This document shows, piece after piece, positions 18,881 through 59,744 of a DNA stretch of 62,499 nucleotides. Each line of letters begins with the position of its first letter. Positions within the stretch are counted from its first letter, which is position 1. The position numbers were made by a program, and so were the translations under genes. Location of the stretch: the NCBI GenBank assembly GCA_028282195.1, contig JANQII010000330.1:1-62499 (forward strand), given 5' to 3'. The notes under the pieces were generated by a model. It was given only the letters and a program-made list of their open reading frames with translations, was not told the origin of the DNA and did not search any database. This stretch comes from Prolixibacteraceae bacterium. GTDB lineage: Bacteria > Bacteroidota > Bacteroidia > Bacteroidales > Prolixibacteraceae.

Positions 18881-18900
18881 AAAGAGATTTCTCAACATAT

Positions 18901-18929
18901 TTTTGTCCGAATTTTGTCCGCGGACAAAA
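18901..18929 (+). promoter_or_regulatory. Integrase operator or recombinase arm site (TTTTGTCCG repeats)
   Basis: A half-site TTTTGTCCG (18901-18909) is followed by the perfect 18-bp palindrome TTTTGTCCGCGGACAAAA (18912-18929). Two further copies of the direct-repeat part occur at the right end near 57810-57835 and 59045-59070. The location just before the integrase promoter suggests autoregulation, arm-site binding, or both. Confidence 0.65.
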
Positions 18930-21987: not shown

Positions 21988-22050
21988 AGTCAGTAGTTGG
22001 TTAAAAAAAAGGACTGAGGTTGGTCGTGGCTTACTTGTAGATAGATACAA

Positions 22051-25299: not shown

Positions 25300-25719
25300 T
25301 TAATCTTCATTTAATTGAATCTCTATCCGTTCAATAAAAACCTGAGATATGCCGTCATCTTTTCCGGGAGACTGTTTGACCCATTTGAGATTTCCATCTG
25401 AAAGAGCTTCTTCAATGACATCCAAATTTCGTCCATAAAGGGTTGCCTGAATATCATGGGTGATAATTTTTAGAACCTTGTTTTCAGACAACACAAAGAG
25501 AGGAAGCAACGAGTAGGGTACTGAATATACTTCCAGCCCACCATGTGTTAGGAGCTTGAACCTTGACACGGACTCATCATGGGAAGTCACAGCAAAAAGC
25601 TGTACAGATGCCTTTTGCTTACTCAAATCAGAGATGGATTGATGTTCACCTTTAACCTCTTGATAAGTCTTGGGAAACGACCCTCGCAAAAGTTTTCTCT
25701 CTCTTCGCAATTCGTTCAT
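25300..25719 (-). CDS. Hypothetical protein overlapping the relaxase 3' end
   Basis: This 139-residue product has mixed alpha/beta sequence (SVQLFAVTSHDESVSRFKLLT, YGRNLDVIEEALSDG) with no recognised domain. Its start lies 68 bp inside the end of the relaxase gene in another frame, suggesting translational coupling. It is conserved in position in the mobilisation cluster seen here, but I cannot compare it elsewhere. Confidence 0.5.
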   Translation of the reverse strand: MNELRRERKLLRGSFPKTYQEVKGEHQSISDLSKQKASVQLFAVTSHDESVSRFKLLTHGGLEVYSVPYSLLPLFVLSENKVLKIITHDIQATLYGRNLDVIEEALSDGNLKWVKQSPGKDDGISQVFIERIEIQLNED

Positions 25720-28405
25720 TGTACTCTTTGTTTTTGATTATTGAATTATAATGTTCACGCTGTTTACGCTGCATCATCATTCGCTTTTGATGATCAAATG
25801 CCACCTCACGGGCTGTTAACCTTTCACCGGATCGCTGAATGGCTTTCTTCAGCTCGTTTTTATCATCACAGTAAATAGCTATTTCCTTTACGCCTCTTGA
25901 CGATGAAACATAGAAGGCTTTGTCATTCGTTGCCGCATAAGACATACTGCTCATTGAAATGATTATTTTTTGAGCGTCTTTTCCCTGTGAGGCGTGGCTT
26001 GTTTCGCAATGGCTGTATTTCAGGTGGTAGAGATCATTGGGAATGTGTTTGTTATTGCTTAACCGAATGCCCCGTTTGGTAAATCCCATGACTTCATAAT
26101 TGGTGCCGTTACTCATTTTTGTGCCTTCCAAAGACGTGGCGTTATTTGTCAGGCGAATACGATCCCCTTGGGCTAAGTTGATGTCCTGCTTTGTGTGAAC
26201 GGCATAATGTTCAGGTGTTTCATAAGGTAAAAACGCTTCCCTCCCTGTCTTAAGGTCACGAACCTTAACCTGATTATCCTTTAAAACATCGGTTACTTCA
26301 TAATGTGAACCTGCCTTGAAGCCACCTTTGGAATTTTTTGCATATCGAATGACCTGACCTTTCTGATAAGTTAAAGCGTCTTTCTTTTGTGCATCGGTCA
26401 GGGACAAATCCTTGAGGGTTTCAAAACTTTTTTCTTCACCACGAATTATCCTCTTCTCTTTGAGCTTTTCACGAACGATCTCATTGATTTTATCGCCTTC
26501 TAAATGGGTTGGAGAAACGATTAATGACGATTGTTTTTGCTCCAGGGTTTTAATATAGTCCTCTGCTAATCTATCAAGGCGCTCATCATGCTCGACTATT
26601 TCTTTTACTGCGCCTTGTTTGTCCAGCTTTTGAAACCCTTTTAAAGTTTTACCATTCGCCAGATCCTCAATTGCAGAGCGGTATTGTTCGGGCTTCTGAC
26701 GAACAATCTTGTCAACGTTAGAAACCTGTATATTCCCTTGTGTCTCCAATATGCGAAGGGCATCTCCGTAAGCAGGGCTGGAATGCTGCTTTGAATCGCC
26801 GCTCAGGATAGTTTTTGCCGATTTATGTTTTTCTGCCAAGTCCAGCAATGCGGTCATATCCTGAGTTCCCACCATGCCCGCTTCTTCTATCAAAAGAACT
26901 TTGTCCTGAAGGTTTTCCTGCTTTTTTTGAGAATGCAAAAGTCCGGCAATGGTATCAGCTTCAAAGCCTTTTTCCCGCAAAACCTCTACAGCCTGAGTGC
27001 TGGGAGCGACTGCAAATAAAGGCTTTTGCGACTGCGCCGCACCTTTTTTTATTTCTGTGAGGAGTGTAGTTTTCCCAACACCTGCCGCGCCCCGCAATAT
27101 TACAGTTTGGTCATACGACCCAAGAATATCTTTGATGGCTTTATTTTGCTGGTCATTCAGAAAATCAAGTTTGGGTTCATAGTCTTTATTCAGAGCAGGG
27201 GACTTACCTTTACCTTCAACGGCGCGGGCAATCATATGATTTTCCTGCCTAACCATTTCACTGGTAGTTATGTAGCTTATTGTGTCCCGTTCGGAACGAA
27301 GTATATTTTCGCGCGAGTTGAGTTCAGCACTGACCTTATCATGGGTTAAATGCCCGTAACCAAGCCGCAGGGCTTCGGCGATAACTTTTTTTTCGTTAAT
27401 CGCTGAATGTCTTTCGAAAAAATGCTCCAAAGACCTGTCAACCGCTTCTTTAACAGGGATTGGTGCAGGCTTTTCAAACCGCTTGCCTTTTAAACTTGTG
27501 AGTTGTCTTAATTCCTCTGGACTTAAACGGCTTTCCCAATGCTGTAAAAGTTCTTTATCCGACAGCGATAAAGCAGATTTATTGAGCCTTGTTTTTGCGC
27601 CGAGTTCACCTTTCTCCAAAGCTGACAAGCCTTTTTCCTCAGCGATACGGTTGATCTCCTGAGTCCTTGAAGAAAAACGTTCAATCACATCACGGGGTAT
27701 ACCGGCTATTCTTACAAAGTTTCCATCGCGCCCTGTTTGATAACCGGCTTTTTCAAGACCAATCGCCAAGGTTGAGTGATAGACAGACCGGATATAGTCC
27801 GAGTTCATATGAGCATTGTAAATTTCCAGGGCGTGATAATGACCCGTTTTTTCATTCCAGGTCACATTCATAGCCGTACAATGCGTATGCAAATTAGGCT
27901 CTGCGATTTGCAATTTCTGACCGTTATGTTCAACCTCCACAGGACGGCTCAAATGGTGCTCGAAGCCCGAATAAATTATATTCCCTGTATATGTGTACCC
28001 TCTGGCATAGCGCGAGTTATTTTGGGTATACATCAGCTTTTCTACTTCCTGCATAGCCGTTTGACAGGCATTACGGTGGATTTCCAGTAATTCAGGCGAT
28101 TGCGTGAAGGCATAGAGCAATGAGAAGTCCTTTGGCGCACTGAATGTTAGATCGACCATTGCTCTACGATTTTCCGCATCACGCGGTGTTAGCTTCTCAT
28201 TCGAGTAAGGATGGCGATTATTGACCAGACGAGTAAAATCCTGCTCAGTGACTTCCTTGCCTTCAAGCCCAAGCCTTTTACTGGTCTTGCCAGCCCAGAA
28301 TGCTTTGATCTGTTGATCAAGGTAGTAATTACCTTCTTTGGACAGACCTTCTTTGAAATATTGCCTAGCGCCTTCGGCACTATGCGAAACATTGATTGTC
28401 AACAT
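25652..28405 (-). CDS. MobF-family relaxase-helicase (TrwC/TraA-like)
   Basis: From the ATG at 28405 the protein is 917 residues. The start MLTINVSHSAEGARQYF fits TrwC relaxases; a tyrosine pair follows in GNYYLDQ. The three-histidine metal site includes LHTHCTAMNVTW. A superfamily I helicase follows: Walker A GAAGVGKTTLL, Walker B LLIEEAGMVGTQDM and C-terminal UvrD-like motifs (YSHCETSHASQGKDA). It nicks at oriT and unwinds the strand for transfer. The frame is open to 28549, whose ATG overlaps the stop of the upstream gene; that longer form would add a hydrophobic 48-residue leader. Confidence 0.85.
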   Translation of the reverse strand: MLTINVSHSAEGARQYFKEGLSKEGNYYLDQQIKAFWAGKTSKRLGLEGKEVTEQDFTRLVNNRHPYSNEKLTPRDAENRRAMVDLTFSAPKDFSLLYAFTQSPELLEIHRNACQTAMQEVEKLMYTQNNSRYARGYTYTGNIIYSGFEHHLSRPVEVEHNGQKLQIAEPNLHTHCTAMNVTWNEKTGHYHALEIYNAHMNSDYIRSVYHSTLAIGLEKAGYQTGRDGNFVRIAGIPRDVIERFSSRTQEINRIAEEKGLSALEKGELGAKTRLNKSALSLSDKELLQHWESRLSPEELRQLTSLKGKRFEKPAPIPVKEAVDRSLEHFFERHSAINEKKVIAEALRLGYGHLTHDKVSAELNSRENILRSERDTISYITTSEMVRQENHMIARAVEGKGKSPALNKDYEPKLDFLNDQQNKAIKDILGSYDQTVILRGAAGVGKTTLLTEIKKGAAQSQKPLFAVAPSTQAVEVLREKGFEADTIAGLLHSQKKQENLQDKVLLIEEAGMVGTQDMTALLDLAEKHKSAKTILSGDSKQHSSPAYGDALRILETQGNIQVSNVDKIVRQKPEQYRSAIEDLANGKTLKGFQKLDKQGAVKEIVEHDERLDRLAEDYIKTLEQKQSSLIVSPTHLEGDKINEIVREKLKEKRIIRGEEKSFETLKDLSLTDAQKKDALTYQKGQVIRYAKNSKGGFKAGSHYEVTDVLKDNQVKVRDLKTGREAFLPYETPEHYAVHTKQDINLAQGDRIRLTNNATSLEGTKMSNGTNYEVMGFTKRGIRLSNNKHIPNDLYHLKYSHCETSHASQGKDAQKIIISMSSMSYAATNDKAFYVSSSRGVKEIAIYCDDKNELKKAIQRSGERLTAREVAFDHQKRMMMQRKQREHYNSIIKNKEYNERIAKREKTFARVVSQDLSRG

Positions 28406-28548
28406 AGGCGCTATTTTTTGTTTGTTAAAATGAAGGGGATTTAGGGGCAGCAGAGCCATAAAAAGGCTCAATGCTATTGCGCACCCCTTATAGACATTTA
28501 TTCCTAATTTGTCCAGCACAAAATGATATGTGGTGATCAAAGATTTCA

Positions 28549-29283
28549 TTAATCCAGAAAGGGTTGATTGTGTAACTGCACCGACTTTTCTTTAATCAAA
28601 ATGATCATTTCGTGGCTCGCTATCCCGATAAGGAAATATCCAAAATAGGCATCAAACCCGGAACGGATGAGATATACGCCCAGGGCAATTGCTCCGGCGG
28701 TTTCAATTAGATTTATAAAGAACTCCCCAACCGTTACATATTTTGAAAACAGTTTTTTGCATAGCAAATAAAAATAGGATGTTCCACGGTGGGTCGATTT
28801 CTCTGGTCCAAAACCAAACCAATTGCGCAAAGTATGGAACAGTGAAACACAGATAAAACATATATTGAAGCCCACTAAAAAATGTGAGTTCACGTCCTCG
28901 AAAGTGAACTGATAGACCTTCTCCCAATCCCAATGTGTCTTCCAAACCGATAAGTCCGGTAGTGAAAAGGAAAACAGGGTTTCAAAAAACCCCCATACAT
29001 GAATACTGTTATACAATAGTATCAGGGTTGCTCCGGCTGCTGTCAGAAGGATTCCGCTCATCAATAATCCCGGAGTTGTAGCTTTCACGGTAGTGAACAG
29101 GTAAGCCATGGTAGCTGCGTGTGCCTTAAACATTTGCCTTATAAGAAAAACTATCGCTGCTATCGGTTTTCGGCGTACCAACCGCCAGAAAGGACTGTTA
29201 AAAAAGCCATTGATTACTTCCGTATCGCCCATGCGGGGAGCGATTTTCTTTCGGATGTTACGATTAGAACTTGATAATTTCAT
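28549..29283 (-). CDS. Hypothetical multi-pass membrane protein of the mobilisation cluster
   Basis: The 244-residue protein starts with a basic stretch, then has about five membrane spans (GLLMSGILLTAAGATLILLY, FLVGFNICFICVSLF, FFINLIETAGAIALGVYLI, YFGYFLIGIASHEMIILI among them). No family is recognised. Its stop codon overlaps the ATG at 28549 (TAATG), implying tight coupling with the relaxase gene. It may anchor the transfer proteins to the membrane. Confidence 0.6.
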   Translation of the reverse strand: MKLSSSNRNIRKKIAPRMGDTEVINGFFNSPFWRLVRRKPIAAIVFLIRQMFKAHAATMAYLFTTVKATTPGLLMSGILLTAAGATLILLYNSIHVWGFFETLFSFSLPDLSVWKTHWDWEKVYQFTFEDVNSHFLVGFNICFICVSLFHTLRNWFGFGPEKSTHRGTSYFYLLCKKLFSKYVTVGEFFINLIETAGAIALGVYLIRSGFDAYFGYFLIGIASHEMIILIKEKSVQLHNQPFLD

Positions 29284-32155: not shown

Positions 32156-33451
32156 TTAAATTTTGTACGCTATTTCTGATAAGATTCTATGTTTTGTTTC
32201 CAGCTTGTGCCCTCTCCCATAATTAACGCCCGGCTTCTTATGTCCCATTAATTCATCGATAATTTCTTCAGGTGCTCCCATTTCTCCATAGTCTCTAAGC
32301 CGGTCTTTGAATGTGTGCCTTAAGGAATATGCAGTGTGATCTTTTGTAGGTCTTAGATTATTTTCAGTAAGAAAATTGTTAACTGAAGCGGAGAAACATT
32401 CAGCATTGCCAAGATGGCTAAATCCTTTGGGAAATTTTTGGAAGGTAATAAGAGCCGATCCTACTAAAGGAATCTTTCTCTCTGAATCTTTAGTCTTAAG
32501 AGTGTAGCCTTTTCTGGGTCTAATCCAGATATAAGGGACTTTCTCATCCAGAAAAATATCATCAGGTGCTAATCCAAAAAGCTCCGTTTGCCTCATCCCC
32601 GTATCTGCGATAGCCCAAAATCCGTATCTATCCCTCTCATTTAGGGTTTTGATTGCTGGAAGAAGAACCTCCTGCACATACTTCGCCTCAAATGGAGTCC
32701 GGCTGTTAGTCGTTTGCTTAAAAAACGTTTCAGCAAATAATACCCCAATATCAAGGTCAATTTCGTTCTTGGTTGAGACCGTTTTAAGGATGTCTTTTAA
32801 AAACGATAACTGTTTGTTTGCTGTATTGGCTTTTAAGCCGTCTCTAATACGATCATTTAGCCAATTCCAGAATTTTAGTATCTCTGATCGTGAAACCTCA
32901 TCGAGATGCTCAACTGTTGTAACACTAATAAAATTATTGATCGCCAGCTTTCTTACGTTCTTCCATTTTCTAATTTGCTCCTCTGATTTATTTGCTAGGC
33001 GAGCATGAACTAGCCTCTCAAAAAGCTCCCAACAATTAGTCAATGGAATTTTAGGCTTGTCTATGCCTCCCAGTAGAGCTTCAGTATTTACTTTCTTGGA
33101 TTCACCAAAAGTATTATTTTCTGTCTTTGATAATCTTTCGGTAATTTCTGACAATGCAGAGGATGCTACCTGCTCAGATGTTTTATATGCAAATCCGTAA
33201 GATTTAGCGAGTTGAACCGCCGCAACATATTTTTGGTCAAAATCTTTCAAATTATTTGAGTGAATTAGAGACTTCCAAAAGCTTTCTATTTGATCATTGA
33301 AGATATTGGCTTTGATTTGAGCTGTTTTAAGGTCTCTCGTTTTGAGTGAAATCTTGACTTCTTTACGAGGGTCAAGATGAGCAACTTCGGCTGGTACTCT
33401 GCGTCTATATCTATAACAGTCACCTACTTTTACCAGATAATTTGGAGACAT
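32156..33451 (-). CDS. Tyrosine recombinase, DUF6538-type (proteobacterial island integrase)
   Basis: The 431-residue integrase starts with the DUF6538-like segment YRYRRRVPAEVAHLDPRKEV typical of alphaproteobacterial integrases and quite unlike the integrase at 18982. The catalytic domain has TGMRQTELFGL (Arg I), AYSLRHTFKDRL (H-x-x-R-type box) and LMGHKKPGVNYG (second His, Tyr). Recombinase repeats and a tRNA 3' fragment lie just beyond its start (33474-33726), a normal attachment-site layout. It marks the start of the proteobacterial-like block. Confidence 0.88.
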   Translation of the reverse strand: MSPNYLVKVGDCYRYRRRVPAEVAHLDPRKEVKISLKTRDLKTAQIKANIFNDQIESFWKSLIHSNNLKDFDQKYVAAVQLAKSYGFAYKTSEQVASSALSEITERLSKTENNTFGESKKVNTEALLGGIDKPKIPLTNCWELFERLVHARLANKSEEQIRKWKNVRKLAINNFISVTTVEHLDEVSRSEILKFWNWLNDRIRDGLKANTANKQLSFLKDILKTVSTKNEIDLDIGVLFAETFFKQTTNSRTPFEAKYVQEVLLPAIKTLNERDRYGFWAIADTGMRQTELFGLAPDDIFLDEKVPYIWIRPRKGYTLKTKDSERKIPLVGSALITFQKFPKGFSHLGNAECFSASVNNFLTENNLRPTKDHTAYSLRHTFKDRLRDYGEMGAPEEIIDELMGHKKPGVNYGRGHKLETKHRILSEIAYKI

Positions 33452-42542: not shown

Positions 42543-43130
42543 TTATTGTTGCCAGATTCTTCTGAAGATTTCTCTTTCTTCTTCACCGATAACATCAAGA
42601 TATATTGCTGTGGTTTCTATGGAAGCATGCCCCATATACTTTTTAACTTTGGAAATCGGGACAACTTTATTTACGGCGGCATGCACAGCAAAACCATGCC
42701 TTAGTCCTCTGGCGCAACTCCTGATGCCTGTTATACCTGCCTTATGCATAATGGCTTTAACATACCTTGATGCGGTGCGTAGAGAAAATGTCCAAAGGGG
42801 ACTTGCACTTTCGTCACTATATCTATAATTACCAACATATTCCCTTAAATCTCTTAACAAGTGGTCTGGTAGGGGAAATTCCCTGTAAAATCCCCGCTGC
42901 CGTTTTTTGAGCGTTTCCATTACCACCGTACCATTGGCAATATCAATATTGGCAGTTGTTAGGTTGTGTACTTCGGCTATACGTGCACCTGTGTAATAGA
43001 GCAACTGGCAGAAAAGTTTTTTCTTTGCACTGCATTTTTGGGTTTCTTCAAGAAAACGTAGCCGTTCGGCGCGGTTAAGGTATTTGCGCTGCCCTGCTTG
43101 GCTATATAGCGACATTGTTGTTTTGTACAT
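42543..43130 (-). CDS. Minimal tyrosine recombinase (catalytic domain only)
   Basis: From the ATG at 43130 (or 43115) the product is about 195 residues. It contains only the catalytic domain of an XerC/XerD-like recombinase: LLYYTGARIAEVHNL (Arg I), ARGLRHGFAVHA, YMGHASIETTAIYL (His and Tyr). The SAM-like core-binding domain is missing, as in compact or solo integrases. An inverted repeat of TGTCCGA/TCGGACA (43167-43193) lies just before it. It could resolve dimers or move the adjacent unfamiliar block. Confidence 0.75.
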   Translation of the reverse strand: MYKTTMSLYSQAGQRKYLNRAERLRFLEETQKCSAKKKLFCQLLYYTGARIAEVHNLTTANIDIANGTVVMETLKKRQRGFYREFPLPDHLLRDLREYVGNYRYSDESASPLWTFSLRTASRYVKAIMHKAGITGIRSCARGLRHGFAVHAAVNKVVPISKVKKYMGHASIETTAIYLDVIGEEEREIFRRIWQQ

Positions 43131-43166
43131 AATCGAAGCTTTTCGTCTTATTACCAATATAATAAC

Positions 43167-43193
43167 TGTCCGATTATTAGATATTCTCGGACA
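43167..43193. repeat. Inverted repeat beside the minimal recombinase
   Basis: TGTCCGA (43167-43173) and TCGGACA (43187-43193) flank a 13-bp AT-rich centre, the size of a Xer-type crossover site. The half-site recurs as TTCGGACA at 43322-43329, so the interval 43167-43329 may hold the recombinase's own sites. Confidence 0.55.
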
Positions 43194-43350
43194 TATTTGC
43201 AAACAAAAAGACTCGATTTTTTGATTTTTAGGGTAAATTCCCCCTCCTCTATCCTGAAAAATGCTCTGTACTGGGGTTCTCGTCCGTAAAAAAACCATCT
43301 GGTGGCGCAATATATCTAATTTTCGGACAAAATAATTTACAGAATACAAT

Positions 43351-43614: not shown

Positions 43615-43799
43615 GTAAAAGTGCATATTTAATACATAAGAATCTATAGGTCATAACATTTAACAAAGTTTCACCTGCTTGTGTATGGCTTTTTAAAAAT
43701 TTTAAGGTTATGGAATCAATTTCTTGTAAAAGCTACCCTAAAGTGATACAACTAATAGCTGACAATTGGGTTAATTGCGCCTGCGCGAAGGAGGCTGTG

Positions 43800-44345
43800 A
43801 TGAAAAAAGGTAAACTACTACTGATCGCCGGCATAACTACGGCCTTCATGCTGGTCGCCAATGACAATGCCGATGCGCAAACCTTAGCCAGCAGTTCTCC
43901 GACCAAGACGGAAAAGCCGTCAAAAACCTCTGCGAATAAGCTCAATGCGCCTGTTGTTAAAGCGCATCAAGGTGATGGTGCGGCTATGAAAGGTTCGTGG
44001 GATGGTCACATTGCCGTTCACATCTACCGTGCCAAAGATGATCCCATAAGTGGTGAACGCTACGCCAAGGGCATGGCAAAAGCTTTTTCTACCCCCGAAA
44101 AATCCGGCGGCAAGCCTATCAACATAATAGCCACATATCAGGAGAGTAATTATGCTCCGAAAAGCTATGTGAATATTTATATTGATGGCGTGACATGGAA
44201 ATATGATGGAAGCGACAACCTGACACCAAATTTGGCAAGGCATTTAATACCGCAGATTATGAAAGATTATGTTGCCGAATTTGGAGATTCTAAGCTAATC
44301 CCTGAGGAAGGTCCTGCTGTGGCGACCGTTTCAGCAAGCCTCTAG
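43800..44345 (+). CDS. Hypothetical exported protein
   Basis: The ATG at 43800 follows a strong AAGGAGG site at 43788-43794, so I use it and not the upstream 43710. The 181-residue product has a signal peptide (MKKGKLLLIAGITTAFMLVA and then NDNADAQ), a Ser/Thr/Lys linker and a mixed alpha/beta domain with HIAVHIYRAKDDPISGERYA and YVNIYIDGVTWKYDGSDNL. No family recognised. The strong Shine-Dalgarno is unusual for a Bacteroidota gene. Confidence 0.6.
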   Translation: MKKGKLLLIAGITTAFMLVANDNADAQTLASSSPTKTEKPSKTSANKLNAPVVKAHQGDGAAMKGSWDGHIAVHIYRAKDDPISGERYAKGMAKAFSTPEKSGGKPINIIATYQESNYAPKSYVNIYIDGVTWKYDGSDNLTPNLARHLIPQIMKDYVAEFGDSKLIPEEGPAVATVSASL

Positions 44346-44348
44346 TCA

Positions 44349-45173
44349 CTACCATCCAGAATCCATAGTTGGCGCAGTAGTCGCTACGATAGACTCTTCT
44401 TTAATGACAGTCTTAGCTTCTGATACAGAAGAGTTTTCGAAATCGTCAGCTTCACCCCGACCAATATCGTAAAGTTTATCGTTCTCCTGATCGTCTTCCC
44501 AAGCTGTATTAAACGCCTCATCAAAATTGAGACCAATGGCATTGGCTTTGTTTTCAAGCCTTTCCAGTGCTTCCCTATATTGTGTTTTCTTCTCTGGGCT
44601 TAGGTCATCATCATCGTTCAGATGCTTCTTATATTTCGCGACATTGTGTTTAATTCTTTCAACCAGTTCACCTTGTTTGAGTTCTTCCTGATCTTCGAGA
44701 TCAAAGGATTTATCAATAACGTCTTGGGCGCTCCAGTTTTTAACTTCGTCTGGATCTTCGTCGTAATCTTTTACAAACATCGCCTTTAAAGCATCTATAT
44801 CGCCATTTTCACGATATTCTCTCAATCGAGCCTGACGTTCACGGCTAGCAGCATAGGCATCAATATCTCTGTCAATGTCGTCATAAAGCTCACGCATATC
44901 CTCAGACATGAAGTCGAGCATGAATTGCACATTACGCTGTTCTTTCTTTTGTTTTTCTTGAAGAGCTTTCTCGGTCGCTTTTGCCTGCGCGTAACCATCC
45001 AGAATTACACTAGAATCCTCTTGTTCCACATCTTTACGCCCCTGATTAAGAACGAACTCCTTTAGTTCTCTTTCGCGCTCAACAGTTGAAGGGTCTAGCC
45101 CTTGTTCAAGCGTTTCTGAGAGAACAGCTCCATTCACGGCTTCATTGAATGTTTCTCTTATGTTTAAAGACAT
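44349..45173 (-). CDS. Hypothetical acidic cytoplasmic protein
   Basis: The 274-residue protein is highly acidic and helical, with coiled-coil stretches (QAKATEKALQEKQKKEQRNV, REYRENGDIDALKAMF), an Asp-rich patch (NDDDDLSPEKKTQYREAL) and a C-terminal TMDSGW. No recognisable domain. It is the only minus-strand gene near here besides the large one at 48348 and converges with the exported-protein gene 3 bp away. Confidence 0.5.
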   Translation of the reverse strand: MSLNIRETFNEAVNGAVLSETLEQGLDPSTVERERELKEFVLNQGRKDVEQEDSSVILDGYAQAKATEKALQEKQKKEQRNVQFMLDFMSEDMRELYDDIDRDIDAYAASRERQARLREYRENGDIDALKAMFVKDYDEDPDEVKNWSAQDVIDKSFDLEDQEELKQGELVERIKHNVAKYKKHLNDDDDLSPEKKTQYREALERLENKANAIGLNFDEAFNTAWEDDQENDKLYDIGRGEADDFENSSVSEAKTVIKEESIVATTAPTMDSGW

Positions 45174-45398
45174 TGTTGAATCCCCATTCTTTTTGTCTTT
45201 CTCTTTTTTTTTGTGACTTACTGCTTTGCATCATTTTTAGTTGCCACATAGATATGATAATACAGCGAGGTTAAGAAGGTGTGTATTTTATGTAAAATTT
45301 TATCTATTTATCCGCACGATGAGAAATGCGGGTGTCAGCTTTGTTGATTGTATTATGTCCTGATGAGATATTTTGAGGCACATCTGAGCGCATGGCCT

Positions 45399-45415
45399 TG
45401 AAATGTATTATTTCA
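45399..45415. promoter_or_regulatory. Inverted repeat before the tandem-repeat gene
   Basis: TGAAAT-GTATT-ATTTCA is a perfect 6-bp inverted repeat in the 349-bp gap 45174-45522, about 108 bp before the start of the repeat protein. It could be an operator. The remainder of the gap is AT-rich and holds no gene I can support. Confidence 0.45.
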
Positions 45416-45522
45416 TAGAAACCGTTTATAAAGCCTTAAAAAAAAGCCAAAATCTTCTTTACGATTGCTTAAATCTTTCGAGTCATTATGCTTTGAAAAG
45501 GACATAATTTTTTTGAGAAGAA

Positions 45523-47259
45523 ATGAAAGAATCAGAGAAAAAACAGAAGACCGGAGACATTATTCCTTATCCAAGCGAGGGTGTGGTGGATATTCTTAAA
45601 AAGATTGATATTCTTAAAGCTGCCGGAAAGCAGACAGGATGCAATGCCAAAGCTATCATAGATGTTGGTGGCACACTGCCAATAGGATTGACAGAGAGCC
45701 GAATTACACAAATCTTGGAGGGCGAAATCACGACATTCGCTGAGGAAGAATATGAATACATTATAAAGTCTCTAAAAAAAGTGCCTAAAGAAAGGTCTTA
45801 TACAGCAGCATCACAGCAGCCTGCTGAAGAAAAGGAGCATGTCATCATAGATGAAGAGACGTTTGTTTTATTACAAGAGCTGAGAGAGAAAACAGACATA
45901 GGAGTGGTAGCCTTACTGAATAGAGCAAAAAATGCTCCCGAAGATTTAAAGGCTTCTACAGCTCAAAATTGGATTTCTGGCAAATCTAAAAAAGCACGGC
46001 GGGATCATCTGGATTTTCTCTTGCAAGAATGGCGAAAATACTCTCAATACGAGTTTGTTGAACTTACAGCAGAAATCCCTAAAGAATTGTTGGGATATGA
46101 GGAAAGTACTGGGATTGGGCCTCAAGCACTTTTACGGGGAACTCAAAAAGAACGCCCTGAAGGCTTAAGCTCTGACATTATAAAAAGATGGTTAAAAGCT
46201 CCAAAAGATAAGGTACGAAAAGATTATTTAGAATTTACCTTACAGGAGTGGAGGAAATACCCCCAATACGAGTTTGTTGAACTTACAGAAGAAATCCATA
46301 AAAAATTGCTGGGATATAAGGAGAGTACGGGAATTGGACCTCAAGCTCTTTTAAGAGGTACACAAAAAGAACGCCCTGAAGGACTGAACTCCGGCATAAT
46401 AAAAAGATGGTTAGCGGCACCTCATAAAAAGGTGAGAAAGGATCATCTGGATTACGTGCTCGCCAGATGGAAGACTTTAGAGCAATTGGAAGCCAAAAAG
46501 ATTATTATTCCCGATGAGATTCTCCAAAAACTGCATCATCATTGGAAGAGAACAAACATTGGGCCTGAAAAGCTATTGAAGCTTGGAAGCTCAGTTCCCC
46601 GTGGTCTAACCTCACCAATGATTTGTCAATGGCTGTATAAAAAGACCAAAACAGCCAGAGAGGATCATTTAGATTTTGTTTTAGAGCAGTGGGAAGCTTT
46701 GCCGGAGTCAAAAAGAAGGACTTTTAGCAAAGGTCGTACTGCGCGATTACCGCAAACTATGCAGGGCTGTGTTGAAGTTACCCCTGAGATAATAAAGCAG
46801 CTTCGTGAATTGAGAAATACGACTGGCGTTGGAGTGAATCACCTTCTGAAAAAAGCAAAAGACCTCCCTGAAGGCTTAACTATTGGCGTTGTAAGTGGCT
46901 GGTTTAATGGAGGTACAGCCACAGCACGAAAAGACCACTTGGAGTATATGGTTCAAAAGTGGGAGGCGCTGGCAAATTCGGGACAAGAGATAAAAAACAG
47001 ATACATCACGAATAAAGACGGTTACGAACCTATTTCCCAACAAGATTTAGAAGAAATGCGACATTACCGAGATATGCTAAACCTTTTACCGGGGCATCTT
47101 CTTAAAATTAGTGATGATGTACCGGAAGGACTAACCAACTCAATGATTGGTGGCTGGTTAAGTGGTGTCACCCAAAATACCAATCCTGAATTTGTGAGTT
47201 GGGTTTTAGAGCGGTGCAGAGCGGTAGTAAAAGAATCCTATGAAAAAGCTCTTCAATAA
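45523..47259 (+). CDS. Tandem helix-turn-helix-like repeat protein (seven units)
   Basis: The 578-residue protein consists almost entirely of seven related units of about 67-70 residues, at about 20-86, 106-172, 177-245, 249-318, 326-393, 416-483 and 501-568. A consensus is EI...L....TGIGP..LL......PEGLTS, then II..WL.....KARKDHL and DFVLE.W. Each looks like a small lambda-repressor-type fold whose recognition helix starts at GLTS; six units keep the Trp (W150, W223, W296, W370, W460, W545). The residues after GLTS differ strongly between units while the scaffold is constant, as expected if each unit reads different bases. No known family fits; function unknown. Confidence 0.7.
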   Translation: MKESEKKQKTGDIIPYPSEGVVDILKKIDILKAAGKQTGCNAKAIIDVGGTLPIGLTESRITQILEGEITTFAEEEYEYIIKSLKKVPKERSYTAASQQPAEEKEHVIIDEETFVLLQELREKTDIGVVALLNRAKNAPEDLKASTAQNWISGKSKKARRDHLDFLLQEWRKYSQYEFVELTAEIPKELLGYEESTGIGPQALLRGTQKERPEGLSSDIIKRWLKAPKDKVRKDYLEFTLQEWRKYPQYEFVELTEEIHKKLLGYKESTGIGPQALLRGTQKERPEGLNSGIIKRWLAAPHKKVRKDHLDYVLARWKTLEQLEAKKIIIPDEILQKLHHHWKRTNIGPEKLLKLGSSVPRGLTSPMICQWLYKKTKTAREDHLDFVLEQWEALPESKRRTFSKGRTARLPQTMQGCVEVTPEIIKQLRELRNTTGVGVNHLLKKAKDLPEGLTIGVVSGWFNGGTATARKDHLEYMVQKWEALANSGQEIKNRYITNKDGYEPISQQDLEEMRHYRDMLNLLPGHLLKISDDVPEGLTNSMIGGWLSGVTQNTNPEFVSWVLERCRAVVKESYEKALQ

Positions 47260-47352: not shown

Positions 47353-47940
47353 ATGGACAATATTGTTAGTTTTCAAGATGAAAAGATAAAAAAGGTATGG
47401 AGCAAAAAATCTGATCACAAAATAGAACTACACACCCCTTTAAAAATCAGTTTTCCTACTGAAGAAGCTCCTAATATAGAAAATGAAATATCAGGAAAGA
47501 AACCTGAGGAACCAATAGAAGTAACGAGTTTTGTCGGAAAAGTTGCCGATTTTCTTATCAAAGCTCATCGAAAGATAAAAAAGTTTGTCATGCAGCTTGG
47601 GGATACTTTCATTAAGCCGATACGTAGTTGGTATTGGCGTGTGGAAAGTCGGAAGCTCATGGGAGAGCTTATGACACTATCCTTAAAACTCAATCGTAAC
47701 AATTTTCATGTTTTTATTCGATTTTATGGACATACTGAGAACATTGAAGTTCAAGTGTATCCAAGAGGATGGGAAAGAGAAGAATGCGAAAAGTTGCGCC
47801 TCCTAACAGGTAAACTTCCCGGATATGGTAAGTATTATTATAAGATGAAACCACACCAAATCAGGGAGGCTATGAAGACACTTGTGCATTTGTCCAACCT
47901 CAATAAGGTGCAAGACCGCTTTGGAACCAATATAGTTTAA
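47353..47940 (+). CDS. Hypothetical protein
   Basis: The 195-residue product has a polar N-terminal half and a hydrophobic-amphipathic middle (VGKVADFLIKAHRKIKKFVM), then a basic C-terminal domain with MTLSLKLNRNNFHVFIRFYG and GKYYYKMKPHQIREAMKTL. It is 93 bp downstream of the repeat protein on the same strand and may be cotranscribed with it. No family recognised; it could be a membrane-peripheral partner. Confidence 0.5.
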   Translation: MDNIVSFQDEKIKKVWSKKSDHKIELHTPLKISFPTEEAPNIENEISGKKPEEPIEVTSFVGKVADFLIKAHRKIKKFVMQLGDTFIKPIRSWYWRVESRKLMGELMTLSLKLNRNNFHVFIRFYGHTENIEVQVYPRGWEREECEKLRLLTGKLPGYGKYYYKMKPHQIREAMKTLVHLSNLNKVQDRFGTNIV

Positions 47941-51021: not shown

Positions 51022-52788
51022 ATGACAGATCCAATAAAAAAGCAAAACTCGTCAAATTCCAAAGAGGATAGTTCGAGACTTTCAACAAAACGTCTATATC
51101 GAATAGAGAAGAATAGATACCTTTCAATAGATCCAATAGAAGAAGGTGAGACTATAGATAAAGCTATCCCCATTAAGAAAAATTTCTCCTTGGATAAAAA
51201 TAACAGAAATAAAAACTCTAATTCAGAAATTCTTAATGATCTTGATGACACCGGAATTTATGGATCAGGGATTCCAGTCTCTCCTAGAGTGCGTATCGGG
51301 AAAATTATTATACGTTTAGGCATTGTATTTGGGATTGCTGCCGCTGGAACTTCTTATTTTAAGGAAGAACTCAAGCAAGATGATGATGAAGAAATCACGT
51401 GGACAGATCATGTGCGTAGCTATGTTAATGAAAACATACGAGCACACGGTAACGATATTTTACTCCTCAAAGATAAGTCTTTGGGTGATGTGAAATATGT
51501 TGGTGAGTTTTCAAATGGGCTGCCCAATGGTAAAGGCATTAAAATTGGTGAAGGATTTTGTTTTAAAGCTAATTGGAAGAACAATGAAATTGCTGATGGG
51601 GCTGTTGATCTAGAGTTTGAAAATGGTGTGCTATATGTGGGGCAATATAAAGACCAAAGATCACATGGGCTGGGAAAATTAACCGAAAGAGACAGCCTGG
51701 GTCAGAAAAGTGTTTATGAAGGACTTTTCGTAAAAGGGAAAAAACATGGTAAGGGCGTTATTTCATGGTCCGAACTAGGTAATCGTTATGAAGGTGTCTG
51801 GGATAATGGGCAGGTTGTTGGCCCCGGCAAGGGCAGCTTCACATGGGAAAACGGTAATCATTACTCCGGGGAATGGAAAGATAATAGACCTCACGGCCAA
51901 GGAACCATTAAACTAAAAAATGGTTTTAACGGTGTTGCACAATATGAAGGCTCCTTTAGAGATGGCCTTCGCCATGGAACGGGTACTTTTAAATGGGCTA
52001 ATGGTGCAGAATACACCGGTCACTGGAAAAATGGCCTACCTACGGACTCAAAACTTACAATTACATGGCCAGACAAACGATCTTATGAAGGAGGGTGGAA
52101 TATTTATTCTGGTCAACAGCAAGGGTATGGGACTCTGAAAAACGCAGACGGGTCAACTTATGAAGGGCAATGGGATCAAGGAAGAGAACATGGCAAAGGA
52201 ACGTTTAAATGGACTAATGGCGATGTTTACACGGGCGATTGGCTAAAAGGTGAAAGGACGGGTAACGGCAAAATCAAATGGAATAACGGCAATAGTTATC
52301 AAGGTGATTTTGTAGATGGTACACAATCAGGGCAGGGTACTTACCTTTTTAATAGCGGTACACGCTATGAAGGTGGGTTTTTAAATAACAGTTTTTCAGG
52401 TTACGGAACGATGCGTTGGACAGATGGGGATCGTTATGAAGGAGAGTTTTCAAAAGGAGAGAGAACCGGATGCGGTAAATTTTATTGGGCTAATGGCCAT
52501 CGTTATGACGGTGACTTTGTGAATGGAGAAAGAACAGGATATGGCAAATATTATTGGCCTGGAAATGGACGCTATGAAGGTGATTTTGTAAATGGCGTAA
52601 GAACCGGTAATGGCACGAGATATTTTCCTGGGGGTGCTAAATATCAGGGAGCATGGTTAAGGGGTAAACCTAATGGCCGAGGCACTTTTGTCTATAAGAA
52701 TGGAAAATCAAAAAGCGGAACATGGGAAAATGGGTGCTTAAAGGGATGGTTTGGAAGTCGCGATTGTAGCTACTTTTCGTATGATTAA
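51022..52788 (+). CDS. MORN-repeat membrane protein
   Basis: The 588-residue protein has a basic, polar N-terminal region, a single membrane helix (about 95-113, IIIRLGIVFGIAAAGTSYF) and then about 18 MORN units of 23 residues (type YEGEF..GERTGCGKF and YEGDFVNGVRTGNG) to residue 580. Such units form an elongated beta-hairpin rod that binds lipids or proteins, and the topology here suggests an inner-membrane protein with a long extension. It is followed 3 bp later by the VirD4-like gene, so it is likely a partner of it. Confidence 0.75.
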   Translation: MTDPIKKQNSSNSKEDSSRLSTKRLYRIEKNRYLSIDPIEEGETIDKAIPIKKNFSLDKNNRNKNSNSEILNDLDDTGIYGSGIPVSPRVRIGKIIIRLGIVFGIAAAGTSYFKEELKQDDDEEITWTDHVRSYVNENIRAHGNDILLLKDKSLGDVKYVGEFSNGLPNGKGIKIGEGFCFKANWKNNEIADGAVDLEFENGVLYVGQYKDQRSHGLGKLTERDSLGQKSVYEGLFVKGKKHGKGVISWSELGNRYEGVWDNGQVVGPGKGSFTWENGNHYSGEWKDNRPHGQGTIKLKNGFNGVAQYEGSFRDGLRHGTGTFKWANGAEYTGHWKNGLPTDSKLTITWPDKRSYEGGWNIYSGQQQGYGTLKNADGSTYEGQWDQGREHGKGTFKWTNGDVYTGDWLKGERTGNGKIKWNNGNSYQGDFVDGTQSGQGTYLFNSGTRYEGGFLNNSFSGYGTMRWTDGDRYEGEFSKGERTGCGKFYWANGHRYDGDFVNGERTGYGKYYWPGNGRYEGDFVNGVRTGNGTRYFPGGAKYQGAWLRGKPNGRGTFVYKNGKSKSGTWENGCLKGWFGSRDCSYFSYD

Positions 52789-52791
52789 AGA

Positions 52792-55700
52792 ATGGGGGAT
52801 TCAAAAATGGGAAATTTCGATCAATATAGTATAGAGCGCTACAATCAAGATGAAGAAAAAGACTATTTAAAACCAGCCATTGAATCAGAAGGTGGTATAG
52901 AACTCCTAGATAACGAAGCTGGCTGGATCATTGGAGCGCGTGGCGGCAGACCGCTTAGATTTCCTACAGATAAGCATATGATTACCATTGCTAATACGGG
53001 TGGTGGTAAAGGGACAAGTGTTGCTATCCCCAATCTCCTTAATCATGAGGGGTCGGTTTTATCTGTTGAAATCGGCGGTGCAACTTATCATCAAACAGCG
53101 AAGTATCGTAAGCATATTTTAAAACAAGATGTGCATGTGATTGATCCGTTCGGCATTACGGGTGAGCAATCAGCATCCTTTAATTTTATAGATGCGCTAG
53201 ATTCGAATAAGCCAAACTTCAAAACAGAAGTTTCAAAAATATCGAATACTTTGTTGAAGGATTTGGAGAACGATAGGAATCCTTATTTTAAGATTGCAGC
53301 TCAGAGTTTGATTGAGGCCATGATTATTCATGTCAAAATATCGCCGATGATTGATGATGAGGAACGTAATTTCACGAAAATTATAAATTTAATATCAGAC
53401 TATCCCAATGAAGATTGGTCTCTGTTAATGGAAGAATGGAGTGATGATATTGGGCTATTTCGTACTGGCTTAAATCAAGTAGGAAGAGAGTTTTTGGGTC
53501 GAGAAAACGACACAAAATACAGCGTTGTTTCTACAGCTCGGGCAGCATTATCTTCTTTTACCGATCCTGCCATATCTAAAATCACCGAGCACTCAACGTT
53601 TGATGTCTCTGATTTGCGGAACAAAAAGTCTTCTATTTATGTTGTGATGCCAGAGGCCGAATATTTTTCAGCTCATGCATCATGGTTAAGACTTTTTGTA
53701 GAACGAAGTTTTGCCGCATGTCCGAACCTCGGGGAAAAGGTACGAGACTTTAAGCAAAATGATCGTGTGCTTTTTATGTTGGATGAGTTTACGCAGCTTG
53801 GAAAGTTAGACGCAGTTGATGTTGGTATGCAAACAGCAAGGCAAAAAGGCATTACCATCTGGGCGATGTTCCAAGACTTGGGTCGTCTAAAAGAGGTTTA
53901 TGGCGAAAATATTGCCTCTTCTTTCTTGGGGGCAGGCATTTTTCAAGCTTTTGATATTGGCGATGATATAACAGCAAAATATATCTCTGAAAAAGCAGGA
54001 AAGCGTATTGTGCATATTCCTTCTTTTCGTTTTGACCAGAGTGAAGGTACAACGGAAACACATACAATAGGGACAGGTCACACAACGGGTCTACAGTTTA
54101 CAGATACGGAAGGAACACAAAGCTCGGCTACAGAGAATTGGAGTGTAGGACATTCTTCAGCGGAAACAAATCAAACTAGTAGAGGTTCGAATACAAACAC
54201 TTCTCAGAATGAGTCATTTGAAAGCCCCAGTCGTAATTTGCTCGGTATTCACAGGATACGATATCGTGATAATCCCAATATGTTTGATCAATACCGGGCT
54301 AAGAAAAGAAATTATGCTCAAGGTTCTCAGTATGGCACTAATGAAAGTGCGATGGAGGGCACAACGAATACGCAATCAGGCCAAAAGGGTGGTTCAATAG
54401 CAGCGAGCGTACAGAACTCGAGAGCGACCACTAACATTGATACAACAACTCAACAGAGTAGCAAATCTAAGGCGCATAGCACAAACCAAACGCAAGGTAT
54501 AAGTTGGACTCCCCAGATTTTGCCAGAACTTGATCCATCACAAGTGCAACAAGTTCTGGGTTCAAATAATGCTCAGATTATCTTTGTGCGCGCATCAAAT
54601 AAAACTATGAAGCTTATTGATCGCAAAGCCTATTTCTATGAAATGCCTGAGATCAAACGCCGTGCAGAGGGGCGTTACTTAATTGATCAACCTGTATATG
54701 AAGGTTATAAGCCACAGGTGAGGTATTTACCTACTCACGCTAATTTATTAGCTCTTCAAATACCACAAATTCAATATCCAAATGTCAAAATAGACCCGAA
54801 TGTAAATTATTCATGTGAGCTCAAACAGCCTTTAACATTAGACGCAGATGAAGGAACTGTAAGTTTAAAAGCATATACTGACAATTTAGTAAAATTTCAA
54901 AATGCTCTATGTAATAAATCAAGTTCTTCAGAAATTTTGGAACATCAAACAAGGTTATATGAAACATTTGCGCAAACAGCGCATATAATTGATATGGAAG
55001 CTGCTGAGATCAAAGATATAGTTGCAAATACAATGCATTTTACAAATAAAATAGATCACAGGTTTTTCCTACATCTTTTTCAAGTTCGCACAAGTTTCGA
55101 AAGGCTCAATAAAGTACAAAATTATTTAGATAATTTTGAAATCAGCCTCAACGAACAGGTAGAGCTGTTACATGACTATCAAAAAGATGTTTTAAAAAAA
55201 ATGGACATACAACAAGAGTTCATAGCAGCAGCCAAGCATTATCAAGAGTTCTTGAAAGAATTTACTATTATGGCCTTAGACTGGAAGGGGATTCCTTTGC
55301 CAGAGCGTATTCAACACAACACCTCTGAAAAAGCTCTTAATTATCCATCACGCGAAGAGCGTAGAGAAATTCTGCATAAAAAAGTGTATAGACCACATGT
55401 TCCTAGAGATCAAGCACCCAAATTTGATTTAAACTTTGATACAGAAGAATCTCGCGGTGCCAATCAACATAATATATCGATGGATAAACGTTTTCAGGAT
55501 CTATTGATGGAAAACACCATAAAGTTACGTAATGGACGTAAGGTTTCTGCATGGCATTTAATTTCTATTTTGCACAAACGTAACAAAGCACCAGCTAAGA
55601 CACGTAAAACTAAAATTGGCCGTGAATTTGTAGGTAGGTTATCTAATAGAAATTTAACATATTATCTCGAAAAAAGAATGAAAGAAATTTTACCTCAGGT

Positions 55701-56028
55701 TTCTCGTTATCATAAAAACGCTGTTTCTGAACAAAATAAAATGTCTGACCATGTGAAAAGTAGAAAACAGCTTTGGGCTAACACAGCGCACAAAATTAAT
55801 GATGCAAAGGTTGAATTATATGAATTTTCAAATCAATTGCTAAAACGCAAGTCTGATCTAGCAAATTATGTTGAATATTTAAAAGGAGAATTTCAAGAAG
55901 TACAGAAGATGGATTTGTTTGTACATGCTGATAGCGTGGACGTTCATAATAAAATTGCTCGTATGAAAGAATGGGATCAGTTAGAGCGTATTAAACTTGA
56001 AAATCCAAATAAATATAGCTTGGAGTAA
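52792..56028 (+). CDS. VirD4/TraG-family coupling protein with long C-terminal extension
   Basis: This 1078-residue protein has the VirD4-type Walker A TGGGKGTSVAIPNLL (from residue 69) and Walker B VLFMLDEFTQLGKLD (D331-E332), with MQTARQKGITIWAMFQDLGRL following, as in plasmid coupling ATPases. Residues of about 410-560 are low-complexity Ser/Thr/Gln-rich, and 560-1078 are a largely helical extension unlike ordinary VirD4. No N-terminal transmembrane pair is visible, so it could rely on its MORN neighbour for membrane contact (inference). No VirB channel genes are in the window. It is of a different lineage from the coupling protein at 23165. Confidence 0.78.
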   Translation: MGDSKMGNFDQYSIERYNQDEEKDYLKPAIESEGGIELLDNEAGWIIGARGGRPLRFPTDKHMITIANTGGGKGTSVAIPNLLNHEGSVLSVEIGGATYHQTAKYRKHILKQDVHVIDPFGITGEQSASFNFIDALDSNKPNFKTEVSKISNTLLKDLENDRNPYFKIAAQSLIEAMIIHVKISPMIDDEERNFTKIINLISDYPNEDWSLLMEEWSDDIGLFRTGLNQVGREFLGRENDTKYSVVSTARAALSSFTDPAISKITEHSTFDVSDLRNKKSSIYVVMPEAEYFSAHASWLRLFVERSFAACPNLGEKVRDFKQNDRVLFMLDEFTQLGKLDAVDVGMQTARQKGITIWAMFQDLGRLKEVYGENIASSFLGAGIFQAFDIGDDITAKYISEKAGKRIVHIPSFRFDQSEGTTETHTIGTGHTTGLQFTDTEGTQSSATENWSVGHSSAETNQTSRGSNTNTSQNESFESPSRNLLGIHRIRYRDNPNMFDQYRAKKRNYAQGSQYGTNESAMEGTTNTQSGQKGGSIAASVQNSRATTNIDTTTQQSSKSKAHSTNQTQGISWTPQILPELDPSQVQQVLGSNNAQIIFVRASNKTMKLIDRKAYFYEMPEIKRRAEGRYLIDQPVYEGYKPQVRYLPTHANLLALQIPQIQYPNVKIDPNVNYSCELKQPLTLDADEGTVSLKAYTDNLVKFQNALCNKSSSSEILEHQTRLYETFAQTAHIIDMEAAEIKDIVANTMHFTNKIDHRFFLHLFQVRTSFERLNKVQNYLDNFEISLNEQVELLHDYQKDVLKKMDIQQEFIAAAKHYQEFLKEFTIMALDWKGIPLPERIQHNTSEKALNYPSREERREILHKKVYRPHVPRDQAPKFDLNFDTEESRGANQHNISMDKRFQDLLMENTIKLRNGRKVSAWHLISILHKRNKAPAKTRKTKIGREFVGRLSNRNLTYYLEKRMKEILPQVSRYHKNAVSEQNKMSDHVKSRKQLWANTAHKINDAKVELYEFSNQLLKRKSDLANYVEYLKGEFQEVQKMDLFVHADSVDVHNKIARMKEWDQLERIKLENPNKYSLE

Positions 56029-58951: not shown

Positions 58952-59071
58952 CTTCATCCTAATTTAATTCCCATTTTTTGAAGAATAAGAAGGATTTCCT
59001 ATCTTTTTCTATTTAGAAATAGGAAAAAGCTCAGAAGCCAATATATTTTTGTCCGTATTTTGTCCGCGCAA
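58952..59071 (+). repeat. Terminator/TTTTGTCCG direct repeat, right copy 2
   Basis: Near-identical in layout to 57719-57837 (CTTCATCCTAATTTAATTCC, hairpin arms CTTTTTC/GAAAAAG, TTTTTGTCCGTATTTTGTCCG). The two copies are 1.2 kb apart in direct orientation and could recombine, deleting the ParDE pair between them. Confidence 0.65.
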
Positions 59072-59359: not shown

Positions 59360-59617
59360 GTATGAGTATGAAAACTTATGCGGTTACCCAACTTCCGGCA
59401 TGACGTGCTAAAAACGGTTTTCAAGCTTGGCAAACCTGCAAGGGAGAAAGTCAAAGCTTATGAGCTATTTACCTTTCATTCCAGCAGAAGGACATTTGCG
59501 AGTTTTTGTGTCCGGCATGGATGCACACTGGATCAAATTGGACTGATATACGGACACTCAAAAGGTACTTATCTGCTTTTTCCAGAGAGAACACACCGGA
59601 TGACTTGCCTAATTTTT
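59360..59617 (+). pseudogene. Degraded 3' end of the integrase gene (copy 3)
   Basis: The sequence parallels 20030-20292 of the integrase: KLPSFQHDVLKTVFRLGK, FTFHSSRRTFASFCVRHGC and TLDQI are recognisable. A deletion of about 16 bases just after the DQI codons shifts the frame, so no functional catalytic end remains. It is a remnant of an older integrase of the same family. Confidence 0.8.
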
Positions 59618-59744
59618 AGTTTTCTTGTCACTTAGCATTGCGCCATTCCCCTGAAGAATATCTCTATTCCCTAACAAGAGGCATTTTGTCCTACAAATAG
59701 TTTTATAATCCATACTCTTTTTTCAAATAATCATGCAAATTTTG

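Follow-up and report, generated by a model that had tools for sequence, protein, structure and literature searches.

A tandem helix–turn–helix-like repeat protein of a Prolixibacteraceae bacterium and candidate direct-repeat sites beside its gene

Background

Bacterial helix–turn–helix (HTH) regulators usually gain specificity by dimerising, and those of the Cro/C1 type usually consist of one unit that dimerises. Myb repeats are tandem three-helix DNA-binding repeats of eukaryotes, and the repeats of transcription activator-like effectors (TALEs) are 33–35 amino acids (aa) long with two adjacent code residues. TraM- and ParR-like plasmid proteins, which have ribbon–helix–helix (RHH) or other folds and act as oligomers, bind short direct repeats beside their own genes. 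The stretch analysed here, 62,499 nucleotides of contig JANQII010000330.1 from a Prolixibacteraceae bacterium (the window), encodes on a putative integrated element a protein of seven HTH-like units in tandem. The DNA between its gene and a divergent coiled-coil-like gene carries candidate AT-rich sites that recur at related loci, here designated by L numbers. It is fairly probable that the protein is an element-borne regulator whose tandem HTH units bind these candidate sites and that it mainly controls the coiled-coil-like gene.

The repeat protein and its units

The original prediction of seven related units in one ORF, several modules on one chain, is borne out (Table 1). Unit boundaries were placed by hand and the units then aligned, which gives a unit length of 71–73 aa in place of the 67–70 residues first proposed, with linkers of 1–19 aa. 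Pairwise identity between units is 12–40%, units 3 and 4 excepted; unit 1 is the weakest, with 12–21% identity to the others.

Units 3 and 4 had been described as nearly identical and recently duplicated, and neither description holds. They are 73% identical as protein and 72% as DNA, and 40 of 72 codons differ, 20 of these synonymously. Because dS is 1.28 (dN 0.21), the duplication is not recent; the two units are an old pair under purifying selection, and have IIKRW in common.

The stretch after the GLTS motif had been reported to vary against a constant scaffold. This is confirmed by the alignment, from which we read our own classes of exposed and recognition-face positions. At the six positions of the putative recognition-helix face, agreement is 13.1% over 84 within-protein unit pairs, against 20.2% over the same pairs for the 47 positions classed as exposed, and random sets of six positions were as low in 339 of 20,000 draws. 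In three orthologous unit classes, conservation of recognition versus other exposed positions was 6% vs 28%, 15% vs 22% and 31% vs 31%.

Structure modelling is in keeping with the predicted lambda-repressor-like HTH fold of the unit. The single-unit model (unit 6) is confident (pLDDT 87.2) and contains four helices (6–19, 23–29, 39–47 and 55–69); a full-chain model from one sequence reached a pLDDT of 39 and was not used. Structure matches of the unit model are mostly to Cro/C1 and related domains, including SinR, C.Esp1396I and HipB. An HHalign comparison with 26 Cro/C1 domains is in weak agreement: the units align with helices 1–3 in register at a probability of 29.7%, and the score exceeds those of all 100 shuffles and of the reversed control. 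The turn from helix 2 to helix 3 is not the short one of the Cro/C1 type: the alignment has a 5-column insertion there, and the model places the end of helix 2 at 29 and the start of helix 3 at 39.

Family profiles do not recover the units directly. In 11 proteins scanned singly, no unit reaches the Pfam HTH_3 (PF01381) cut-off of 23 bits, the best being 18.5 bits in L077; four further members were scanned against Pfam in a pooled table only. In Pfam, NCBIfam, PHROGs and PADLOC the units have only marginal or sub-threshold matches, and PDB sequences gave no match to the units below an E value of 0.2. The C-terminal domain of the L024 protein, which is not one of its repeat units, is a canonical Cro/C1 HTH (54.4 bits to HTH_3). 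An RHH fold was considered on account of weak Pfam matches (E 0.0007 in L086) and found no support: its HHalign score is 13.4 (probability 1.9%), 15 columns out of register, and among 100 shuffles one exceeded it, at 14.3, in what is a weak test given an RHH profile of seven sequences.

Distribution of the family

A scan of genome contigs with the unit alignment, in which 56 stretches matched a pattern, found five relatives, in alpha proteobacterium BAL199 and in metagenome-assembled genomes of Hyphomicrobiales, Balneolaceae, Micavibrio and Croceivirga. A seven-unit profile recovers 16 further units at 28 bits or more in five proteins of other genomes (best domain E 9.5e-26). The repeat unit is therefore a real evolutionary domain.

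The family is rare and sporadic in Alphaproteobacteria and Bacteroidota (Balneolaceae included). A 23-unit profile matched at least 2 of 395 genomes in the phylum of the host, namely the host and one other, whose match coordinates equal those of the Balneolaceae genome. It matched at least 5 of 385 genomes in the class of the Micavibrio genome, at least 4 of 249, 2 of 36 and 6 of 142 in three orders, and 3 of 8 in one family. These genome sets overlap and each includes its known centre; the phylum, class and 249-genome order counts are lower bounds, since not all first-look candidates were scored in the larger genomes. Searches with the whole protein found no close relatives in plasmids, phages or viral contigs, the unit alignment found none in viral contigs, and queries from the relatives matched nothing in plasmids or viral contigs. 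The first searches among the relatives of the host gave weak matches in 4 of 60 other genomes, none with an E value better than 0.07, and in 7 of 99 other genomes; those opened were RpoB (L021, L022) and 2-oxoglutarate dehydrogenase (L010), and the rest had E values of 0.0045 or worse.

The number of units per protein ranges from one to seven. Only the window has seven; L023, L085 and L086 have six, L084 about six degenerate ones, and L077 four whole units and one cut by the contig end. There are two units in L025, L027, L079, L081 and L082 and one in L078 and L136, and the remaining members have three to five. Four alphaproteobacterial proteins end with the same order of subtypes, assigned by eye (an insertion-bearing unit, an LLP unit and a VxQ unit), which suggests that the unit array is inherited as an array. 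In the order of the Micavibrio genome, two helicase-like proteins are fused to units, three in L134 (7837–10068) and one in L136 (7723–9024); their superfamily 2 motifs (TGVGKT, SDEAH and AFTATA) were recognised by eye.

Gene layout and shared sites

Among 20 member loci (the near-identical L083 and the fragment L087 excluded), 14 have a small gene, then an opposite-strand coiled-coil-like gene, then the repeat gene: the window, L024–L027, L078, L079, L081, L082, L084–L086, L133 and L135. The repeat gene is divergent from the coiled-coil-like gene in 11 of these and on the same strand in L078, L079 and L133. Of the six loci without this layout, L077, L080 and L137 abut a contig end; in L023 a transposase occupies that place, and the helicase-like fusions L134 and L136 have different neighbourhoods. 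A toxin–antitoxin pair intervenes in L027, and one more gene in L081. Homology of the coiled-coil-like gene is shown only between the window and L027 and between L081 and L082. Homology of the small gene groups the window with L025 and L027, and L081 with L082, with weak links (E 0.004–0.009) among L026, L084 and L086. Outside these subgroups, the equivalence of neighbours is judged by position and composition only.

The DNA between the coiled-coil-like gene and the repeat gene was compared in a discovery set of 12 regions, that of L023 lying behind the transposase; for motif discovery 11 were used, L082 being omitted as kin of L081. A de novo 22-bp motif scored 76.9; the highest score was 61.7 among 15 shuffled sets and 71.7 among 15 sets drawn from other intergenic regions. 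For the 11- and 16-bp de novo motifs, the best of the 15 control intergenic sets scored higher. The 16-bp matrix failed in leave-one-out in 7 of 11 regions, and the 11-, 16- and 22-bp matrices were not significant in L135, L133 and other test regions, with the exception of L082 at 22 bp (3/300). No long repeat or strong palindrome stood out in single regions.

The idea of a tandem 11-bp unit came from inspection. Over the 11 regions, self-match at a lag of 11 has a z of 3.0 and ranks top of the 36 lags from 5 to 40; taken singly, 12 regions give p < 0.05 only in L081 and L025. The direct repeat ATTTKA-N5-ATTTKA, of 11-bp period, was sought in the discovery set with L133 and L135 added, and is present in 7 of these 14 regions (L026, L027, L081, L082, L084, L086 and L135), or 6 of 13 without L082, compared with 1 of 175 control intergenic regions and none of 107 AT-matched ones. 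ATTTKA pairs at other spacers from 0 to 20 occur in at most one region each. L081 has three repeats consecutively. In 386 kb (the fetched loci and the window) there are 11 exact tandem sites, eight of them in target regions and one in L083.

The single site ATTTKANNTA is found in 11 of 14 regions compared with 7 of the 107 AT-matched controls, which include the L078 region itself as one of the seven matches. With L078 added, the totals are 12 of 15 for ATTTKANNTA and 7 of 15 for the tandem form. The L078 region holds three single sites and no tandem form; one of the three reads ATTTTATCTA, a sequence also present in the window, L025 and L026. Of three regions outside the discovery set, L135 thus has the tandem form only, L078 single sites only and L133 neither. 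The region in the window carries TTATGTAAAAT, in common with L023 and L024.

In L078 and L079, where the two genes are co-oriented, the site remains before the coiled-coil-like gene. It is absent from all six stretches upstream of repeat genes that are co-oriented or stand alone (L078, L079, L080, L133, L134 and L136).

Interpretation

In the reading that we favour, the protein would be a transcriptional regulator in which as many as seven lambda-repressor-like (Cro/C1-like) HTH units follow one another. It would bind the AT-rich ATTTKANNTA, often as 11-bp-period direct repeats with the core ATTTKA, before the coiled-coil-like gene, and in divergent gene pairs would also control its own gene. 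Neighbouring units, joined by short linkers, would each occupy the next major groove along one face of the DNA, one helical turn apart, with about one unit per turn; such a placement is possible because the 11-bp step is close to a helical turn. Rather than dimerising on a palindrome, the protein would draw its affinity and specificity from several weak HTHs chained together. We infer DNA binding, the choice of these sites and the regulatory outcome. DNA repeats come in twos or threes and the proteins have two to seven units, without the one count tracking the other; some units may therefore bind weakly or serve other roles. The single sites in the L078 region slightly strengthen the case for a regulator. 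A bolder form of the idea is unlikely: a natural chained reader with one unit per helical turn, free variation of chain length and recognition helices from one mobile element to the next, and targets whose length and sequence evolve as units are gained, lost and mutated.

The protein might instead mark DNA for transfer or inheritance in the manner of TraM- or ParR-type proteins, coating direct repeats and handing the element to a coupling protein or a segregation partner. Repeats with an 11-bp period would be as fitting at a centromere-like site or beside oriT as in an operator. The MobF relaxase and two coupling proteins of the element are in keeping with a marking function, as is a coupling protein gene no more than 6 kb away from the repeat gene in the window, L026 and L077 (by Pfam) and in L078, L085 and L135 (by BLAST). 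However, the relaxase in the window lies 17 kb away, exact tandem arrays are only two or three repeats long, and the fetched flanks of L025, L027 and L081–L083 contain no homologue of the relaxase or coupling proteins of the window nor, among the matches listed, of the L077 coupling protein. We regard a marking function as rather unlikely. A role as a protein–protein scaffold, for example for the coiled-coil-like partner, with the sites bound by another regulator, appears improbable. HTH folds can serve functions other than DNA binding, four members of the family are acidic, and a coiled-coil-like neighbour is present in 14 loci; against this, among the matches listed no other gene is common to all these loci, and the exact tandem sites are concentrated in the target regions.

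The original prediction likened the protein in its logic to TAL-type repeats. In a TAL-like reader of this sort, each unit would read its own short word through a variable recognition helix, so that gain or loss of units would reprogramme the target. A variable recognition face on a constant scaffold, the spread of one to seven units per protein and DNA repeats about one helical turn apart are what such a reader would have. Other observations speak against it: there are no 33–35-aa repeats, the core ATTTKA is similar across phyla though the recognition residues differ, and orthologous unit classes agree at only 6–31% of recognition positions. Neither does repeat number match unit number, the two-unit L081 having three repeats and the seven-unit window two, and units 3 and 4 have retained IIKRW over a dS of 1.28. 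A TAL-like code is accordingly very unlikely, and the element-borne regulator remains the preferred reading.

The host element and neighbouring genes

As judged from sequence, the repeat gene sits in a 40-kb integrated conjugative-type element bounded by direct repeats (Table 1); by eye, the window has a chromosomal look over its left 18.8 kb and at its right end, with the element in between. Its genes include those for an integrase, the MobF relaxase, two coupling proteins and ParB-, ArdC-, RadC-, SSB- and Toprim-type proteins. The VirD4/TraG-type protein has a homologue 2 kb downstream of the L135 repeat gene (27.9% identity over 1158 columns). Directly upstream of its gene, 51022–52788 encodes a 588-aa protein with twelve MORN repeats, which could be cargo of a secretion system.

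The element has three tyrosine recombinase genes (18982–20292, 32156–33451 and 42543–43349), one of them with a DUF6538 domain; this one is matched by a homologue in L026, the Micavibrio locus. A reverse transcriptase gene (RVT_1; 20419–22050) lies just within the left end. Past the right border lies a second tyrosine integrase fragment (59378–59635). In an ungapped DNA comparison it shares 63% identity with the 3′ portion of the element integrase gene (20050–20292), which suggests an older insertion at the same site.

The small protein begins with a signal-peptide-like sequence in most loci, and none is visible in L135. The copies in the window, L025 (8323–8886) and L027 (7831–8421) have the motif DPISGxRYAxG in common, and the window copy matches no Pfam family. 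Homologues of a small serine recombinase lie near the module in eight alphaproteobacterial loci (L078, L079 and L081–L086); the L078 copy is a Resolvase by Pfam.

Table 1. Positions of features in the 62,499-nucleotide window
Feature	Position	Strand	Remarks
Left border repeat	18897..18922	.	25/26 bp identical to right repeat; adjoins tyrosine integrase
Tyrosine integrase	18982-20292		beside left border repeat
MobF/TrwC relaxase of element	25652..28549	-	17 kb from repeat gene
Small protein, signal-peptide-like N-terminus (by eye)	43710..44345	+	211 aa; homologues in same place in L025, L027
Coiled-coil-like gene (by eye), divergent	44349..45173	-	274 aa; homologue in L027
Divergent intergenic region, coiled-coil-like gene/repeat gene	45174..45522	.
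Candidate operator ATTTTA-N6-ATTTTA (spacer-6 form)	45285..45304	.	ATTTKANNTA sites on both strands
Tandem HTH-repeat protein, seven units	45523..47259	+	578 aa; ATG start, no internal stop
Unit 1, most divergent	45580..45798	+	residues 20-92
Unit 2	45838..46050	+	residues 106-176
Unit 3	46054..46269	+	residues 178-249
Unit 4	46273..46485	+	residues 251-321; 73% identical to unit 3
Unit 5	46498..46710	+	residues 326-396
Unit 6 (folded unit)	46768..46980	+	residues 416-486; model described in text
Unit 7, LLP subtype (by eye), common to relatives	47023..47238	+	residues 501-572
Downstream gene	47353..47940	+	195 aa; homologue directly downstream of L077 repeat gene
VirD4/TraG-type coupling protein	52792..56028	+	1078 aa
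Right border repeat of 40-kb element	59043..59068	.	26-bp direct repeat

Comparison with known systems

Among the literature matches listed, titles and the opening parts of abstracts contain nothing recognisable as this tandem HTH-repeat family. The unit is of a known kind; what is probably new is its chaining, together with a repeated candidate target. Up to seven HTH units per chain, with a candidate target repeated every 11 bp, would be a different route to specificity. The repeat protein and the candidate sites form a directly testable protein–DNA pair, and offer a handle on the control of little-known integrative elements in Bacteroidota and Alphaproteobacteria. If single units have separable specificity, designed DNA-binding proteins would gain a new scaffold.

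A likeness to Cro/C1 HTH domains (XRE, HTH_3) is suggested by the register of helices 1–3 and the predicted unit fold, and a canonical copy stands at the C terminus of L024. The repeat units differ in falling below every Pfam cut-off, in about five extra residues between helices 2 and 3, and in being chained, up to seven per protein, where a Cro/C1 regulator has one dimerising unit. With TraM- and ParR-like plasmid proteins the family shares a conjugative context, whereas the HHalign comparison does not support their RHH fold for the repeat unit. Myb-type proteins, likened here by description alone, also carry tandem repeats. TALEs and TALE-like proteins (BurrH, MOrTL) likewise combine tandem units, a constant scaffold and variable positions, but the units here are HTHs of 71–73 aa and number at most seven. 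A TALE-inspired screen is described as covering repeats of 30–43 aa with at least 10 repeat pairs (PMC5472282); with limits as described, the present family would be outside its reach. Xre of Pseudomonas putida is outlined as having several dimeric DNA-binding domains and higher-order DNA sites (PMC12204516). On that outline, both systems would use Cro/C1-type domains in multiples, but the multiplicity in Xre is one of dimeric domains, whereas here the units are repeated within one chain.
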